This document shows, piece after piece, positions 599 through 9,058 of a DNA stretch of 9,058 nucleotides. A program made the position numbers and the translations under genes. Positions within the stretch are counted from its first letter, which is position 1. Every line of letters begins with the position of its first letter. The DNA is from Bacteroidales bacterium (lineage in GTDB: Bacteria; Bacteroidota; Bacteroidia; Bacteroidales; UBA7960): the NCBI GenBank assembly GCA_003557765.1, contig PWNO01000102.1, forward strand, positions 1 through 9,058, read 5' to 3'. The notes beneath the pieces are model-generated. The model worked only from the letters and a program-made list of their open reading frames with translations. It made no database searches and had not been told where the DNA came from.

Positions 599-666
599 GT
601 AAGGTTAAGCGGACAAGGAATTCGCATGGATGAACAGAGGAGATCCCATCTGGCCAATAAGCCATT

Positions 667-721
667 AACTAAAAGCCAAATAACCAAAAGCTAAAAGCCA
701 ACAAGCTAAAAGCCAACAAGC
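667..721 (+). repeat. Short-period array with a perfect 15-nt tandem duplication
   Basis: The unit CTAAAAGCCAACAAG occurs twice in perfect tandem (691-705 and 706-720). It is preceded by decayed copies (CTAAAAGCCAAATAACC at 669-685, then AAAAG). The words are variants of AGCYAAAA and GCCAACA, so the array looks like an expanded and partly diverged 7/8-nt word. It ends at the last bases of the rubrerythrin gene on the opposite strand. The same word family, on the other strand, abuts the purA start. Confidence 0.75.
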
Positions 722-1303
722 CTAATAGTTCTCGGCCAGCTCCTCAAACCAGGCCTGTGGATGGCGACAAGCGGGGCAATTCTTCAGGGCCTTCTCCCCT
801 TCGTGGATGTACCCGCATTTGATACAAAACCACTGAGTCTTCTGGGGCCTTTCAAAAACGGTGCCTTCCTTCACGCGCTCCAGCAGTTTGAGATAGCGTT
901 CCTCGTGGTGCTTCTCGACCTGGGCCACCAGCTTGAATGATGTAGCCACCCTTTTGAAGCCCTCCTCTTCAGCCACGCGGGCAAACTCCGGGTAAAGCTC
1001 AACCCACTCTTCGTTTTCACCGGCAGCAGCCGACACGAGGTTTTCCGCGGTGGTACCTACCCTACCAGCCGGATAGGCAGCCGTAATCTCCACCTTACCG
1101 CCTACGAGGTACTCATAAAAAGTCTTGGCGTGGATCTTCTCATGGTCTGCTGTCTGCCTGAAGATGTTGGCGATCTGCTCATAGCCTTCTTCGCTGGCCA
1201 CCTTGGCGTACATCTCATACCTGCGGGCCGCCTGCGATTCTCCTGCAAAGGCCTTCAACAAGTTTTTTTCCGTTTGTGTTCCTTTGATTTCTTTTTCTGA
1301 CAT
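722..1303 (-). CDS. rbr: Rubrerythrin
   Basis: This 193-residue cytosolic non-haem iron protein reduces hydrogen peroxide to water with electrons from NAD(P)H-linked donors; it is typical of anaerobes and microaerophiles. The N-terminal four-helix erythrin domain carries all expected diiron ligands: E22, E55 and H58 (DHEKIH), E96 and E99 (GENEEW), E130 and H133 (VEKHHEE). The C-terminal rubredoxin domain has C160-x2-C163 (CIKCGY) and C176-x2-C179 (CPAC) for a single Fe(Cys)4 site. Length and domain order match classical rubrerythrins. The frame stays open to a possible start at 1423, but those 40 extra codons only translate the 6-nt repeat (a TL/IL-rich string) and the spacer. The ATG at 1303, beginning [15 protein letters not shown], is therefore chosen by homology. 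No Shine-Dalgarno sequence is seen. The gene has its own candidate promoter at 1451-1484 and is probably transcribed apart from purA. Confidence 0.95.
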
Positions 1304-1325: not shown

Positions 1326-1361
1326 AATAAGGTTAAGGCTAAGGTTAAGATTAATATTAAG
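1326..1361 (-). repeat. 6-nt-period tandem array in the rubrerythrin leader
   Basis: Six consecutive 6-nt units match CTTAAY or close variants when read on the minus strand (CTTAAT, ATTAAT, CTTAAC, CTTAGC, CTTAAC, CTTATT). The array ends 22 nt before the rubrerythrin ATG. The sense strand contains a single G, so the leader RNA should be largely unstructured. The array has the same period, consensus and orientation as the one at 8342-8401. Confidence 0.8.
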
Positions 1362-1382
1362 GTGTTAAAGGGTTGCGGCAAA

Positions 1383-1421
1383 CCCGGACATTTCGGCCTT
1401 TTGACATTTAGACTTTTAGAC
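1383..1421 (-). repeat. 8-nt-period tandem array in the rubrerythrin leader
   Basis: Read on the minus strand there are four full 8-nt units (GTCTAAAA, GTCTAAAT, GTCAAAAG, GCCGAAAT) and a final partial unit GTCCGGG. The period is exact, with no indels. The array lies 21 nt upstream of the 6-nt array. It has the same period, consensus (GWCNAAAR) and near-identical terminal unit as the array at 8258-8328, where the last unit is GTCCAGG. Confidence 0.8.
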
Positions 1422-1430
1422 ATTGTGCCC

Positions 1431-1444
1431 GGGGCAGTTGCCCC
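1431..1444 (-). promoter_or_regulatory. Strong hairpin at the predicted 5' end of the rubrerythrin transcript
   Basis: On the minus strand GGGGC pairs with GCCCC across the tetraloop AACT. It starts only about 6 nt downstream of the candidate -7 box at 1451-1458, so it would sit at or near the 5' end of the mRNA. No T-run follows, which argues against a terminator. A role in mRNA 5'-end stability or operator function is inference. Confidence 0.4.
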
Positions 1445-1450
1445 TCACAA

Positions 1451-1484
1451 CAAATGTAGCGGTTTTCAGCCCGAAAACAGGAAA
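1451..1484 (-). promoter_or_regulatory. Candidate Bacteroidota-type promoter for rubrerythrin
   Basis: TACATTTG on the minus strand (1458 to 1451) is an exact match to the -7 consensus TAnnTTTG. A weaker -33-like TTTC lies 22 nt upstream (1484 to 1481), in AT-rich DNA. The predicted start would be near 1444, giving a leader of about 140 nt that contains the hairpin and both repeat arrays. The match is by eye and the -33 box is imperfect. Confidence 0.42.
1462..1478. promoter_or_regulatory. Palindrome inside the rubrerythrin promoter spacer (candidate operator)
   Basis: GTTTTC (1462-1467) and GAAAAC (1473-1478) form a perfect 6-bp inverted repeat with a 5-bp centre. It lies between the candidate -33 and -7 boxes, a classic place for a repressor site. 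Which regulator would bind is unknown. It does not obviously resemble a 19-bp Fur or PerR box. Confidence 0.35.
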
Positions 1485-1508
1485 TGACAGAAATTTATAA
1501 ACAGAATA

Positions 1509-1593
1509 AATAAGGTTGAGGTTAAGGCTGAGATTAAGATTAAGATTAAGATTAGGTTAAGGTTGAGGTTAAGGAGTTATGGGAGTTATGGGG
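1509..1593 (-). repeat. 6-nt-period array plus 10-nt duplication between purA and rubrerythrin
   Basis: Read on the minus strand, 1573 to 1509 holds about eleven units of CTYAAY type (CTTAAC, CTCAAC, CTTAAT and so on), with one 5-nt unit breaking the phase. It ends in CTTATT, as the rubrerythrin leader array does. Next to it, at 1574-1593, a 10-nt word of the GAGTTATGGG type (plus strand) is repeated twice. The array begins 35 nt after the purA stop and lies upstream of the rubrerythrin promoter candidate, so unlike its relatives it does not directly precede a start codon. Confidence 0.8.
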
Positions 1594-1628
1594 TTTGCGG
1601 TGACATGGCAGGGTTGTTGGCGACGGGT

Positions 1629-2966
1629 TTAAACCACGGATAGCCTTTGCAGGATACCGGCGCCTTTACGGATGAGGATCTCCTTGCGGTCGGCCCCAAC
1701 GGAGATGATGTCGACAGGCACTTTGACAAAGTCTTCGATGACCGCCACATAGTCCAGCAGTTCCTGCGGAAGCGCTTCAAAGGTTTGGATGTCGTCAAGG
1801 GGGCGGTTCCATCCCCTCAGCTCTTCATAGATTGGTTCCATGTCCTGCTGGCCGGCAGAAAGCGGCACCACATCGTGCGATTCCCCATCCACCTTATAGG
1901 CAACACAGACACGGATCTTCTCCATGCTGTTGAGTACATCGGCTTTGGTCATGATCAGGCGGCTAACCCCATTAATCATCACGGCATACTTGAGGGCCGG
2001 CAGATCGAGCCAGCCACATCTGCGGGGCCTGCCGGTGGTAGAACCATATTCATGCCCTTCATCGCGCAAACGGTCTCCATCCGCATCTAAAATTTCAGTA
2101 GGAAATGGCCCGCTTCCCACGCGTGTACAATAAGCCTTAAACACACCAAACACCTCTCCGATACGCGAAGGCGCCACGCCAAGGCCCACGCAGGCTCCGG
2201 CAGTGATGGTATTGGATGAGGTAACATAAGGATAAGAGCCGAAATCAATGTCGAGCAGGGTACCTTGTGCACCCTCAGCAAGCACGCGGGCACCCTTGTC
2301 GAGCGCCTCATTCACAAACACCTCACTCTGTATCCGCGGCAGTGCCTTTAGCCTCTCAAGTCCTGAAAACCAAGCTTTCTCATAATCATCAAATGGCAAT
2401 CCATCCAACACCAAGTCCCTGAGGTCATAACCAAGATCTTCGGCCATCCGCAGATGCTCCTGCTTCAGGCGGGCATATTTTTCAGTAAAATCAGGCGTAG
2501 CTGTATCGGCAAGACGTAAACCCGTCCTTGCTACTTTGTCCGTATAGGCCGGACCAATGCCCTTAAGCGTACTGCCAATTTTCAGTTTGCCTTTCTTATT
2601 TTCAATGGCAGCATCCATTAGCCGGTGGGATGGCAAGATCAAGTGGGCCTTGCCGCAAACAAAAAGAGACTCCTGCAACTCTTCATCGGGAATGTTGAGC
2701 TGGTCGAGCTCCTTATTGATGATAAAGGGGTCCAGCACCACCCCATTGCCCACCACGTTCAGGCACCCCTTATGGAAAATGCCGCTGGGAATGGTGTGCA
2801 GGATGTACTTCTTGTCTTCGAAAACCAGCGTATGACCAGCATTGGGACCACCCTGGAATCGCGCAACCATTTTGTAGTGTGGAGTCAGGACATCCACAAT
2901 CTTTCCCTTGCCTTCATCTCCCCACTGCAAGCCCAGCAGGACATCGGCCTTGTTTGTGTCGTTCAT
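1629..2966 (-). CDS. purA: Adenylosuccinate synthase
   Basis: This 445-residue cytosolic enzyme makes adenylosuccinate from IMP, aspartate and GTP, the first committed step to AMP. The N-terminal GTP-binding loop with catalytic Asp is visible (LGLQWGDEGKGK, residues 11-22, D17), as are the catalytic His in AGHT (H45), the IMP-binding STLKGIGPAY segment (132-141), GSTTGRPRRCGW (308-319), TKADVL (340-345) and the C-terminal base-recognition SVGADR (422-427). It is slightly longer than the usual 420-432 residues, partly because 18 residues follow SVGADR. The frame is open to 3116, but the family begins at MNDTNKADVLLG, so the ATG at 2966 is used. The 50 upstream codons read through repeat and promoter DNA. 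A 7-nt-type repeat abuts the ATG. The candidate promoter is at 3044-3075. Confidence 0.97.
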   Translation of the reverse strand: MNDTNKADVLLGLQWGDEGKGKIVDVLTPHYKMVARFQGGPNAGHTLVFEDKKYILHTIPSGIFHKGCLNVVGNGVVLDPFIINKELDQLNIPDEELQESLFVCGKAHLILPSHRLMDAAIENKKGKLKIGSTLKGIGPAYTDKVARTGLRLADTATPDFTEKYARLKQEHLRMAEDLGYDLRDLVLDGLPFDDYEKAWFSGLERLKALPRIQSEVFVNEALDKGARVLAEGAQGTLLDIDFGSYPYVTSSNTITAGACVGLGVAPSRIGEVFGVFKAYCTRVGSGPFPTEILDADGDRLRDEGHEYGSTTGRPRRCGWLDLPALKYAVMINGVSRLIMTKADVLNSMEKIRVCVAYKVDGESHDVVPLSAGQQDMEPIYEELRGWNRPLDDIQTFEALPQELLDYVAVIEDFVKVPVDIISVGADRKEILIRKGAGILQRLSVV

Positions 2967-3005
2967 GGCTATTGGATTTTGGATTTTGGCTATTAGCTGT
3001 TGGCC
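2967..3005 (-). repeat. 7-nt-type degenerate repeat abutting the purA start codon
   Basis: On the minus strand the 39 nt directly before the purA ATG are built from words such as GCCAACA, GCTAATA, GCCAAAAT, CCAAAAT and CCAATA. The last word touches the start codon with no spacer. The word family is the same as at 667-721. It contains no Shine-Dalgarno sequence. Confidence 0.65.
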
Positions 3006-3023
3006 GTGAACATAACTGTTCCG

Positions 3024-6842: not shown

Positions 6843-8123
6843 TTACCAGGCAAAAAGCGGGAAATCGCCCATCAGCTCATTCACCTTTCTCCGCACACCG
6901 GCAATGGCCTGTTCGTCATCGATATTGGAGATGACCTCGTCGATGAAGTCGACGATCTTCACCACGTGCTCTTCTTTCAGACCTCGTGTGGTGACGGCCG
7001 GAGTGCCGATGCGGATACCCGATGTCTGGAAGGGCGAGCGGCTGTCAAATGGCACCATGTTCTTGTTGATAGTGATGTCGGCCTCTACCAGGGTATTTTC
7101 CACCTTTTTTCCGGTGATATCAGGAAACTTCGAGCGCAGGTCGATCAGCATCAGATGATTTTCAGTGCCATTGGAGGTCACATGATAGCCCTTATCGATA
7201 AATGCTTTCGCCATGGCCTGAGCATTCTTCATCACCTGTTCGCCATATGCCTTGAATGCTGGATCGAGTGCTTCACCAAAGGCCACTGCCTTGGCAGCAA
7301 TGACGTGTTCCAGTGGTCCGCCCTGTGTGCCAGGGAATACGGCGCTGTCAAGGACTGCCGACATCATCTTCACCTTGCCCTTAGGCGTGGTCAGGCCCCA
7401 TGGGTTTTCAAAATCCTTACCTATAAGAATCAATCCGCCGCGCGGCCCCCGAAGGGTCTTGTGCGTGGTCGTGGTAATGAAATGACAATGCGGCAGCGGA
7501 TCATTCAGCAGGCTGGCAGCAATCAATCCTGCAGGATGTGCAATGTCGGCCATCAGCAACGCTCCCACCTTGTCGGCGATCTCACGCATGCGGGCGTAGT
7601 CCCAGTCGCGCGGATAGGCAGAAGCGCCTGCCACAATCAGCTTGGGCTTTTCCTTCATCGCCACCTCTTCCATATGCTCGTAGTCGATGGTTCCGGCATC
7701 CTCAGTAACAGTATAGGCCACCGGGCGATATAGGATGCCCGACAGGTTTACCGGTGCCCCGTGCGAAAGGTGTCCGCCGTGACTCAAATCAAGTCCCATG
7801 AAGGTATCTCCGGGGTTGAGGCAGGCCAGGAAGACCGCTGCGTTGGCCTGAGCGCCACTGTGCGGCTGCACATTGGCCCATTCAGCACCAAACAACTCCT
7901 TCGCTCTGTCGATAGCCAGCTGCTCTGTCTGATCAACGATCTGACAACCACCATAGTAACGACGCCCCGGATAACCCTCGGCATACTTGTTGGTCATCAC
8001 ACTGCCCATTGCAGCCATCACCTGTTCACTCACAAAATTCTCAGAAGCAATTAGCTCCACACCATGCAACTGGCGCTGACGCTCCTGCTCAATTAAATCA
8101 AATACTTTATGATCTTTCTTCAT
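6843..8123 (-). CDS. glyA: Serine hydroxymethyltransferase
   Basis: This 426-residue cytosolic enzyme, dependent on pyridoxal phosphate, converts serine and tetrahydrofolate to glycine and 5,10-methylene-tetrahydrofolate. It is the main one-carbon supply for purine, thymidylate and methionine synthesis. Family hallmarks are [11 protein letters not shown] (20-30), [15 protein letters not shown] (45-59, with the catalytic Glu at 49 and Tyr at 51), [10 protein letters not shown] (85-94), the cofactor Asp and His in [10 protein letters not shown] (D193, H196) and the Schiff-base lysine K222 in [14 protein letters not shown]. The carboxylate-binding Arg is in [14 protein letters not shown] (R371). 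Length matches bacterial enzymes. The only reasonable start is the ATG at 8123 ([15 protein letters not shown]). A separate candidate promoter is at 8178-8209. The gene diverges from the secreted protein gene at 8404. Confidence 0.98.
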
Positions 8124-8209: not shown

Positions 8210-8257
8210 CCTGAATGTTTTCCTTTCAGAAAAATGGTATTTTTACAATCAAATAAT

Positions 8258-8328
8258 GACGAAAGGACGAAAGGACAAAAGGACAAAATGTCGAAAAGTC
8301 GAAAGGTCTAAAGGTCCAAAAGTCCAGG
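8258..8328 (+). repeat. 8-nt-period tandem array in the leader of the secreted protein gene
   Basis: Eight full units of consensus GWCNAAAR follow each other in perfect 8-nt register, with a final partial unit GTCCAGG. The first four units begin GAC (two are exactly GACGAAAG) and the later ones begin GTC. No unit is gained or lost by indel. Units are 60-100 percent alike, so this looks like an old expansion, not a freshly slipping microsatellite. Confidence 0.9.
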
Positions 8329-8341
8329 TATTTGGTAAATT

Positions 8342-8401
8342 CTTAATCTTAATCTCAATCTTAACCTTAATCTCAATCTCAACCTTAACCTTAATCTCAA
8401 T
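8342..8401 (+). repeat. 6-nt-period tandem array next to the start of the secreted protein gene
   Basis: Ten units of CTYAAY (CTTAAT, CTCAAT, CTTAAC, CTCAAC) run in exact 6-nt register and end two bases before the ATG at 8404. The sense strand of the array has no G at all. In the reading frame of the gene, every CTTAA unit gives a TAA stop, the last at 8392-8394, which fixes translation to begin at 8404 or 8407. Confidence 0.92.
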
Positions 8402-8403
8402 AC

Positions 8404-9058
8404 ATGATGTTCAAAACAAACTTACTCCCCATTCTAATTGCATTTTTACTGCCCTTCGGCTCGATGGCCGGCGAAAAAGTTGTGGTTTCCCAATGGCTAT
8501 CCACGGGTCCGCTAAACGTACACTACCCTGCATTTCACGAAACCCCGAATGTAAAGGGTCAGGCATTCAGCGACAGGCAGTTGCTGATGTTTGACCACCT
8601 CGACCTGAACGATTACTTTCCGGAAATCGGCAAGGACCTCATCTGGCTGGATGGCAATTCATACGCTTGGCTGGCAGAAACTACCGATGCAGAGGGTTTT
8701 GTTGCGGTTGCCGACCATCCTTCCGGTGATGAGCCGCAGGTAGCCTACCTGGCCACCTACATCCGTACCGATCGCTGGATCCAGGCACAGCTCGAAATGC
8801 GCAGCCCCTATCTTTTTGAAGCCTGGCTTAACGGTACAAAGATCGGTACCAAATCGACGATAGAAGGTAGCTTAAGCGATGATGATACAGGCAATGATGC
8901 CGGCAATGATGGCAATCAGGATACAGAGCAGGGGTCAGCCGACGGCAGTGCCAATGAGGGCATCAACGATGCAGAAGGTGACGGTCACGAAGAAATGCGT
9001 GGCCGCTATGGGCGTGTCGGACACCAGATGGAACTGCCCCGCGGCAAGCATTTGCTGG
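8404..9058 (+). CDS. Secreted protein, probable N-terminal region of an S9-type peptidase/hydrolase (partial, 3' end missing)
   Basis: The first 218 codons of a gene that leaves the window. An N-terminal signal peptide is clear: a short K4-containing head, hydrophobic LLPILIAFLLPFG, and a likely signal peptidase I site after SMA (residues 20-22). There is no lipobox Cys, so export to the periplasm or beyond is expected. The mature part opens with VSQWLSTGPLNVHYPAFHE and contains RSPYLFEAWLNGTKIGTK (133-150), a beta-sandwich-like pattern. I associate it from memory with the N-terminal domain of large Bacteroidota prolyl-oligopeptidase-family (S9) proteins. The catalytic part would lie outside the window, so this is tentative. 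Residues 156-197 are a low-complexity acidic insert (14 Asp/Glu, no Lys/Arg). ATG at 8404 is followed by another at 8407; in-frame TAA codons at 8392 and upstream exclude an earlier start. Confidence 0.8.
   Translation, partial: MMFKTNLLPILIAFLLPFGSMAGEKVVVSQWLSTGPLNVHYPAFHETPNVKGQAFSDRQLLMFDHLDLNDYFPEIGKDLIWLDGNSYAWLAETTDAEGFVAVADHPSGDEPQVAYLATYIRTDRWIQAQLEMRSPYLFEAWLNGTKIGTKSTIEGSLSDDDTGNDAGNDGNQDTEQGSADGSANEGINDAEGDGHEEMRGRYGRVGHQMELPRGKHLL

Follow-up and report, generated by a model that had tools for sequence, protein, structure and literature searches.

Ordered tandem-repeat modules of different period at gene borders in related Bacteroidales genomes

The 9,058-nt stretch of Bacteroidales DNA analysed here (the window) carries, before a gene for a secreted-looking protein, an 8-nt tandem array followed by a 6-nt tandem array, and this composite probably belongs to a family of modular leader repeats specific to the lineage. 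A fixed order of the modules, placement at gene borders, strand polarity, persistence with varying unit numbers and one insertion at a start codon were directly observed. The explanation we favour, with modest confidence, is that composite leader modules were copied between loci, partly by a mobile leader targeting the pentamer ATGAA, and then resized by slippage. Degenerate tandem modules (8-nt GWCNAAAN, 6-nt CTYAAY, 7-nt GCYAANA and others), several of them strand-polar, would thus occupy gene borders, and the 8+6 pair would be copied with its spacer from locus to locus as a unit. Insertion at ATGAA would leave the start codon whole and supply the gene with a new leader, which would account for the fixed side and orientation. 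The window's own composite may have spread by the ATGAA route, and growth by slippage is presumed because unit numbers differ at orthologous loci.

The window is collinear with contig L126 of the MAG PUOJ (G002; ~85–91% identity) and contig L134 of the MAG PWRF (G001; ~70–86%), and each of its arrays can therefore be read in three genomes. The sequence-only reading had placed the arrays at 8258 correctly. The 8-nt module (8258–8321, plus strand) comprises eight units of GWCNAAAN, four with GAC and then four with GTC; seven of the eight octamers fit GWCNAAAR, the exception being the fourth, whose final base is T. It ends in GTCCAGG (8322–8328; GTCCGGG-like in other copies) and is followed by a 13-nt spacer (8329–8341), replaced in L134 by a spacer of the rubrerythrin type, and by the 6-nt module of ten CTYAAY units (8342–8401). 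The two bases AC then lead to ATGATG at the start of the secreted-protein gene (8404–8409). Since L134 reads ...CAATATGTTC, keeping the second ATG and lacking the first, the true start may be at 8407. The array at 8258 points toward glyA, whose start codon (8121–8123, minus strand) is 134 nt away, and the composite sits between the divergent genes. Directly before the array stands TATTTTTAC (8238–8246, plus strand), conserved in L126 and L134 and a possible promoter of the secreted gene; as a guess, it would place the glyA/secreted composite in the mRNA of that gene. The arrays at 8258–8401 are far above chance: self-match reached 31/36 at lag 8 (8243–8332) and 31/36 at lag 6 (8336–8405), and none of 100 first-order window shuffles gave more than 22/36. 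By Pfam, the window encodes the C-terminal part of a transketolase, rubrerythrin, PurA, Fur, RelA/SpoT, a histidine phosphatase and GlyA; the search gave no match for the secreted protein of the window. An acidic repeat-like stretch lies near 8880–8990 of this secreted-looking protein (8407–9057).

The second composite, reported before the rubrerythrin gene, is likewise as described, and short. On the minus strand, four units (GTCTAAAA GTCTAAAT GTCAAAAG GCCGAAAT; 1390–1421), reversed relative to the usual placement, end in GTCCGGG (1383–1389) and are followed by the 21-nt spacer TTTGCCGCAACCCTTTAACAC (1362–1382), nearly identical in L134 at both the rubrerythrin and the glyA locus, and by six CTYAAY-like units (1326–1361) that end 22 nt before the start codon (1301–1303). 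This copy falls below the listing threshold of 27/36 in the self-match test (Tandem Repeats Finder score 34–48), and it is convincing because its G001 ortholog has 11 octamers and six hexamers around a near-identical spacer. An ORF on the minus strand (1423–722) with its ATG within the 8-nt array extends rubrerythrin in frame across both arrays; ATG 1423 is probably not the real start. Between the purA stop and the rubrerythrin composite lies a lone 6-nt array (1515–1573, minus strand; lag-6 self-match 31/36 at 1509–1579). Two 7-nt arrays of the GCYAANA type complete the window: one ends at the purA start codon (2965–3009, minus strand) and is present in L126 and absent in L134, the other directly follows the rubrerythrin stop (654–727, plus strand) and is shared by all three genomes, its units differing between them. 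The lone 6-nt array and these two 7-nt arrays are additions to the sequence-only reading.

The glyA/secreted composite is present in the window, G002 and G001 with differing units, its 8-nt array having seven units in L126 and seven, of the GACGGGAA type, in L134. The rubrerythrin composite occurs in the window and in G001; G002 lacks it, the purA and rubrerythrin genes being almost adjacent there. About 300 nt containing the lone 6-nt array and the composite (window 1326–1627) are absent from G002 (L126 953–954). The glyA/secreted spacer of G001 is of the rubrerythrin type, one letter off that genome's own rubrerythrin copy, and differs in type from the spacer of the window and G002. This near-identity of two spacers in G001 is the best sign that composites were copied as units.

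A single composite pattern in the order described, searched over the species genomes, gave ten stretches in four MAGs, namely PWRF, PUOJ and SLCY (G003), all Bacteroidales, and SBGR (G004), Bacteroidetes. When all four arrangements of the two modules, 5–35 nt apart, were sought in six genomes, the original order and strand was found at ten distinct loci (five in G001, three in G002, one each in G003 and G004, none in G056 and G244) and each of the other three arrangements at none. The predicted ordered pair is thus borne out. In the sample of stretches described below, the 8-mer came first in six of the seven pairs no more than 100 nt apart, the seventh being formed by the 8-mer before rubrerythrin and the lone 6-mer on the other side of it. 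The proposal of a dispersed composite element or leader type gains from the fixed order and the location at gene borders, but the 8+6 pair is a minority form, found in 7 of the 60 gaps with an 8-mer array, and some of these seven are orthologous to each other. Co-occurrence is modest: among 547 gaps of at least 40 nt, both modules occurred in 7, the 8-mer only in 53, the 6-mer only in 12 and neither in 475 (p = 0.002; 5/53/12/470 and p = 0.027 when the window is left out). Arrays might instead have grown locally and independently by slippage from short words frequent at gene borders, selection having cleared genes and core promoters and left position, polarity and order as by-products of the places in which each word is tolerated. 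The 53 of 60 8-mer gaps that lack a 6-mer agree with such growth, as do the differing unit numbers of orthologs and the other words, with periods mostly of 6–8, in related genomes. The recurrence of one rare order at ten loci against none argues against it, however, as do the spacer types common to several loci and the inner order kept by the rubrerythrin copy (L008) in spite of its reversal relative to its genes. We consider independent slippage rather unlikely.

Of the ten scanned composites, six have a start on the 8-mer side, three a stop (at a distance of 807 nt in one) and one no predicted gene; on the 6-mer side, five have a stop, three a start (one a spurious repeat ORF) and two no gene. 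The commonest order in gene sense is upstream stop, (RTTRAG)n, spacer, CCCGGAC, (YTTTNGAC)m, (YTTTTGTC)n, start. Both window composites depart from it, one lying between divergent genes and the other being reversed.

Placement was analysed in 107 stretches, made up of stretches of G001 and G002 together with the window (1.10 Mb, 833 predicted genes), 14 of 120 fetched stretches having been left out because more than half of their letters were N. This sample held 78 8-mer arrays of at least three units, 14 of them at contig edges, against three for a reversed-unit control; nine of 20 G001 contigs, and nine of 20 in another batch, were chosen for known arrays, which inflates the frequency of arrays and not their orientation. 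The home-made gene caller set the secreted start of the window at 8464 rather than 8404/8407, so that the distance of this array is overstated. None of the 78 8-mer arrays lay inside a predicted gene. Among the 64 with two predicted neighbours, the start codon was on the 5' side in 57; it lay within 30 nt on that side in 30 (mean of random placements 6.9, reached by 0 of 1,000) and within 30 nt on the 3' side in none. Relative to the gene that follows it, the 8-nt module thus usually lies on the non-coding strand, and it reads (YTTTNGWC)n before the ATG in gene sense. A leader common to two genes is therefore upheld as to the start-side placement (57/64) and not as to the sense strand, the 8-mer being usually on the opposite strand and the rubrerythrin copy reversed; one leader type in sense at two genes, as a general rule, is ruled out by the same 57/64. 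The 5'-start rule also holds for four of five G003 arrays and for the sole G244 array with a 5' neighbour, and in G056 none of four 8-mer arrays was near a start.

Each of the other words has a placement of its own, which again would fit independent slippage. TACTKCY arrays had a stop within 30 nt on the 3' side in 14 of 17 cases (null 3.9, reached by 0 of 1,000), AATGTGYN arrays lay just past a stop in four of eight (null 0.7), and 6-mer arrays had a stop within 30 nt on the 3' side in six of 22 (null 1.7, 2 of 1,000). The suggested enrichment before start codons accordingly applies to the 8-mers and does not extend to the 6-mers (start on the 3' side in 3/22 against a null of 1.8). At stops, TACTKCY reads (RGMAGTA)n in gene sense and often overlaps the predicted gene end (L094 1537–1585, L100 19–81, L110 2055–2082, L126 ~10846–10899 and others). 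GCYAANA arrays showed no clear placement in the 107 stretches. Inverted pairs of 7-nt GCYAANA arrays that would form long hairpins were seen in L076 (2915–2976), L093 (10188–10249), L097 (5843–5911), L104 (5205–5266), L106 (26–87), L116 (4401–4469) and L133 (7548–7602); their arms are 6 nt apart in six of the seven and 13 nt apart in L104. Strong Shine-Dalgarno-like AGGAG, unusual for the phylum, precedes the ATG at L125 11873 and at L173 5126.

Variation among units is confined to fixed positions, and this holds for arrays detected by periodicity alone as well. In 8-mer arrays of at least four units, a GAC block precedes a GTC block (23 steps versus 4), and the most frequent units are GACAAAAA, GACAAAAG and GTCAAAAT. 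The 8-mer words were found in ten of 295 genomes of the order (G002 431, G244 21, G056 7, G003 6 and six others with 1–2, the level of the reversed control, in which 13 genomes had 1–4 matches); a stricter pattern gave 446 in G001 and 188 in G002. The 6-mer words occurred in six of 119 genomes and in none of the control. Related genomes also carry other words, with periods mostly of 6–8.

The proposed comparison of orthologous leaders showed arrays kept across genomes. Among 41 reciprocal-best pairs of G002 and G001 genes with a usable leader, 8-mer arrays were present on both sides in five, on one side in two (one in each genome) and on neither in 34, as computed: L129/L072 is probably not orthologous, and L132 holds a remnant of two to three units at an uncalled start. 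In four of the five shared pairs the array is no more than 45 nt from the ATG in both genomes, the glyA pair having distances of 124–392 nt. Identity over the last 60 nt was 0.72–0.77 in three array pairs and averaged 0.66 in 22 other pairs; farther upstream the three had 0.49–0.64 and the others 0.63, a contrast that with three pairs is suggestive only. A regulatory leader kept by selection, in which (YTTTNGWC)n in the mRNA would bind a protein or the ribosome and dispersal would be secondary, is consistent with this retention beside the ATG and with the higher identity next to it, with the strand polarity at starts, with the limitation of variation to fixed unit positions in arrays including those found by periodicity only, and with the report that Bacteroidia ribosomes ignore Shine-Dalgarno sequences (PMC9976891, as far as its accessible part goes). 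Against it, the identity values come from three pairs only, the fixed variable positions may stem from a common source, and there is no sign of a selected RNA structure: 31 leaders had no excess stability (−17.43 versus −17.41 kcal/mol), and an RNA hairpin as the function was set aside on that account. We regard a selected regulatory leader as possible, though not probable. Neutral persistence may also explain the retained arrays.

The arrays could also occupy the usual place of the promoter and work at the DNA level, as a promoter or a protein-binding site, instead of being transcribed as a leader. The motif TAnnTTTG, which we take to be the −7 motif of Bacteroidota, peaks 20–60 nt before the ATG (4.4 and 3.5 per kb) in a set of 430 other leaders, and in 38 8-mer leaders it occurred twice in the gap between array and ATG, never in the arrays and never 20–60 nt beyond them. 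The counts are small, however, and the arrays themselves lack the motif; action at the DNA level seems to us improbable.

A mobile route to start codons is suggested by a dispersed non-coding element that contains some of the 8-mer arrays (five loci, exactly 76 nt from the ATG) and many 7-nt arrays. The element was modelled on the 62 nt before the ATG of six leaders, selected for ending at the ATG. With the best ATGAA match within 3 nt taken as the proximal pentamer, the sample contained 30 proximal ends, of which 21 were followed by ATGAA (19 at the exact modelled edge) and nine by near variants; outside the seeds, ATGAA followed 15 of 24. The element stood exactly at a predicted gene start in 11 of 30 copies and in five of 24 non-seed copies, so that many copies lie at ATGAA words which the gene caller does not take for starts. 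At the distal edge, ATGAA was found in 13 of the 30, another word in seven and no edge in ten. The distal piece reads ..CGCCCAT..GACACACAGG.. and the proximal end ..TATAAACAG, adjoining ATGAA. Further copies were seen in L072, L076, L089, L116, L149, L178, L179, L186 (two in tandem) and L190.

In G002 a 260-nt copy (L126 ~7498–7757) stands exactly at the glyA start with ATGAA on both edges, which may represent a target duplication or an ATGAA borne by the element. The window has a single ATGAA there and no element; G001, also without a copy, reads ATGGAA, leaving the window as the only clean empty site. By eye, no terminal inverted repeats were seen in the L126 copy. A search with the glyA copy gave matches in 16 of 41 relatives, some through the 7-nt array alone. 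A second copy precedes a G001 gene and is absent from its G002 ortholog, the upstream flanks of which do not align. An IS200/IS605-type transposase (PF01797) was considered as carrier and dropped, with one match in G002, none in G001 and no demonstrated link to the element. Of 36 genes that have an 8-mer array no more than 60 nt away, 20 open with ATGAA, compared with 137 of 576 others (p = 9e-5), a hint that this pentamer was also the target of the window's array class. No clean insertion footprint was found for this class, the stretch between array and ATG varying in length and sequence. It is conceivable, although we would not expect it, that a start-codon-targeting mobile leader inserts at ATGAA, leaves the start codon functional and itself delivers the 8-, 7- and 6-nt modules, interchangeable and in fixed order.

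Copying of modular leaders is backed by the order of ten loci against none, the placement at starts, the common spacers, the 5/41 orthologs, the GAC–GTC order and the ATGAA data. It is weakened by the 11/30 copies at starts, the missing footprint, ATGGAA in G001, the 7/60 pairs, G056 and the ordinary RNA stability of the leaders.

Short tandem arrays of heptamers between genes are also known from cyanobacteria as STRR repeats. Rfam at gathering score gave no match in the window, L126, L134 or L116. The sequence-only reading knew of no described family that matches; related kinds are in print, to judge from the accessible parts of three papers. GGGNATC heptamer arrays of Xanthomonas and Nostoc (Rehm et al. 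2015; PMC4692102) are, like the 8-mers, dispersed, mostly intergenic, degenerate and strand-polar, lying mostly on the non-coding strand near starts and on the coding strand near stops. The 8-mers match the start half of this polarity, forming degenerate intergenic arrays within 50 bp of a start on the non-coding strand (30/64 within 30 nt), and at stops the coding strand of TACTKCY arrays is the purine-rich one, RGMAGTA. In contrast to GGGNATC, as there described, the periods here are 8, 7 and 6 instead of 7, the usual 8-mer unit has no run of three G, two or more modules stand in fixed order, and one array class lies in a mobile leader. A quadruplex-capable unit of the GGGNATC type is absent among the commonest 8-mer units.

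TAACTGA heptamer arrays of Beggiatoaceae, Cyanobacteria and five Bacteroidetes (MacGregor 2015; PMC4679880) are tandem as well, lie a few nucleotides from start codons and are gained or lost between relatives; in some Bacteroidetes the corresponding gaps hold other heptamer repeats, and a leader role was suggested. They differ, as far as the available text describes them, in word and period, in running forward to the start, in a near-constant unit and in lacking an ordered pair of different periods. The 8-mer and 6-mer arrays, with other words and periods of 8 and 6, do not have the TAACTGA unit of period 7. The 8-mers lie 7–30 nt before the ATG in one orientation, orientation classes being not comparable between different words. 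BrickBuilt, a MITE of Porphyromonas gingivalis (Klein et al. 2015; PMC4596501), is dispersed and intergenic in a member of the Bacteroidales and has a tandem repeat of strain-variable unit number between leader and tail, but the accessible account gives it a 23-nt unit, terminal inverted repeats and target duplications of variable length, unlike the ATGAA edges found here. Conserved flanks around a variable array are present in our leader element (30 proximal ends); in the 8+6 composite the spacer is the only flank part common between loci. Among the matches listed from open-licence PMC text, the composite was undescribed by title and abstract. Since these kinds, as described in the parts consulted, have no ordered modules of different period, the composite is best seen as a variant of known gene-border repeats: repeats at gene edges are established, and what looks new is their ordered combination in several repeat lengths.

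Gene-border repeats in these genomes are placed by word, 8-mers at starts and RGMAGTA at stops, and the ordered composite recurs across loci and species. The ATGAA element may offer a concrete route by which mobile sequence settles at start codons and leaves genes unbroken. In bacteria that do without Shine-Dalgarno sequences, a low-complexity stretch before the start might tune leader length or the access of ribosomes, a role we put forward tentatively and hold to be less than probable. The part that leaders play in Bacteroidia is of general interest, ribosomes there working without Shine-Dalgarno pairing (PMC9976891, in its accessible part), and natural array-length variants at orthologous starts make it testable. 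If the mobile leader system is real, the leaders of many unrelated genes would have been rewritten and then tuned by repeat number.
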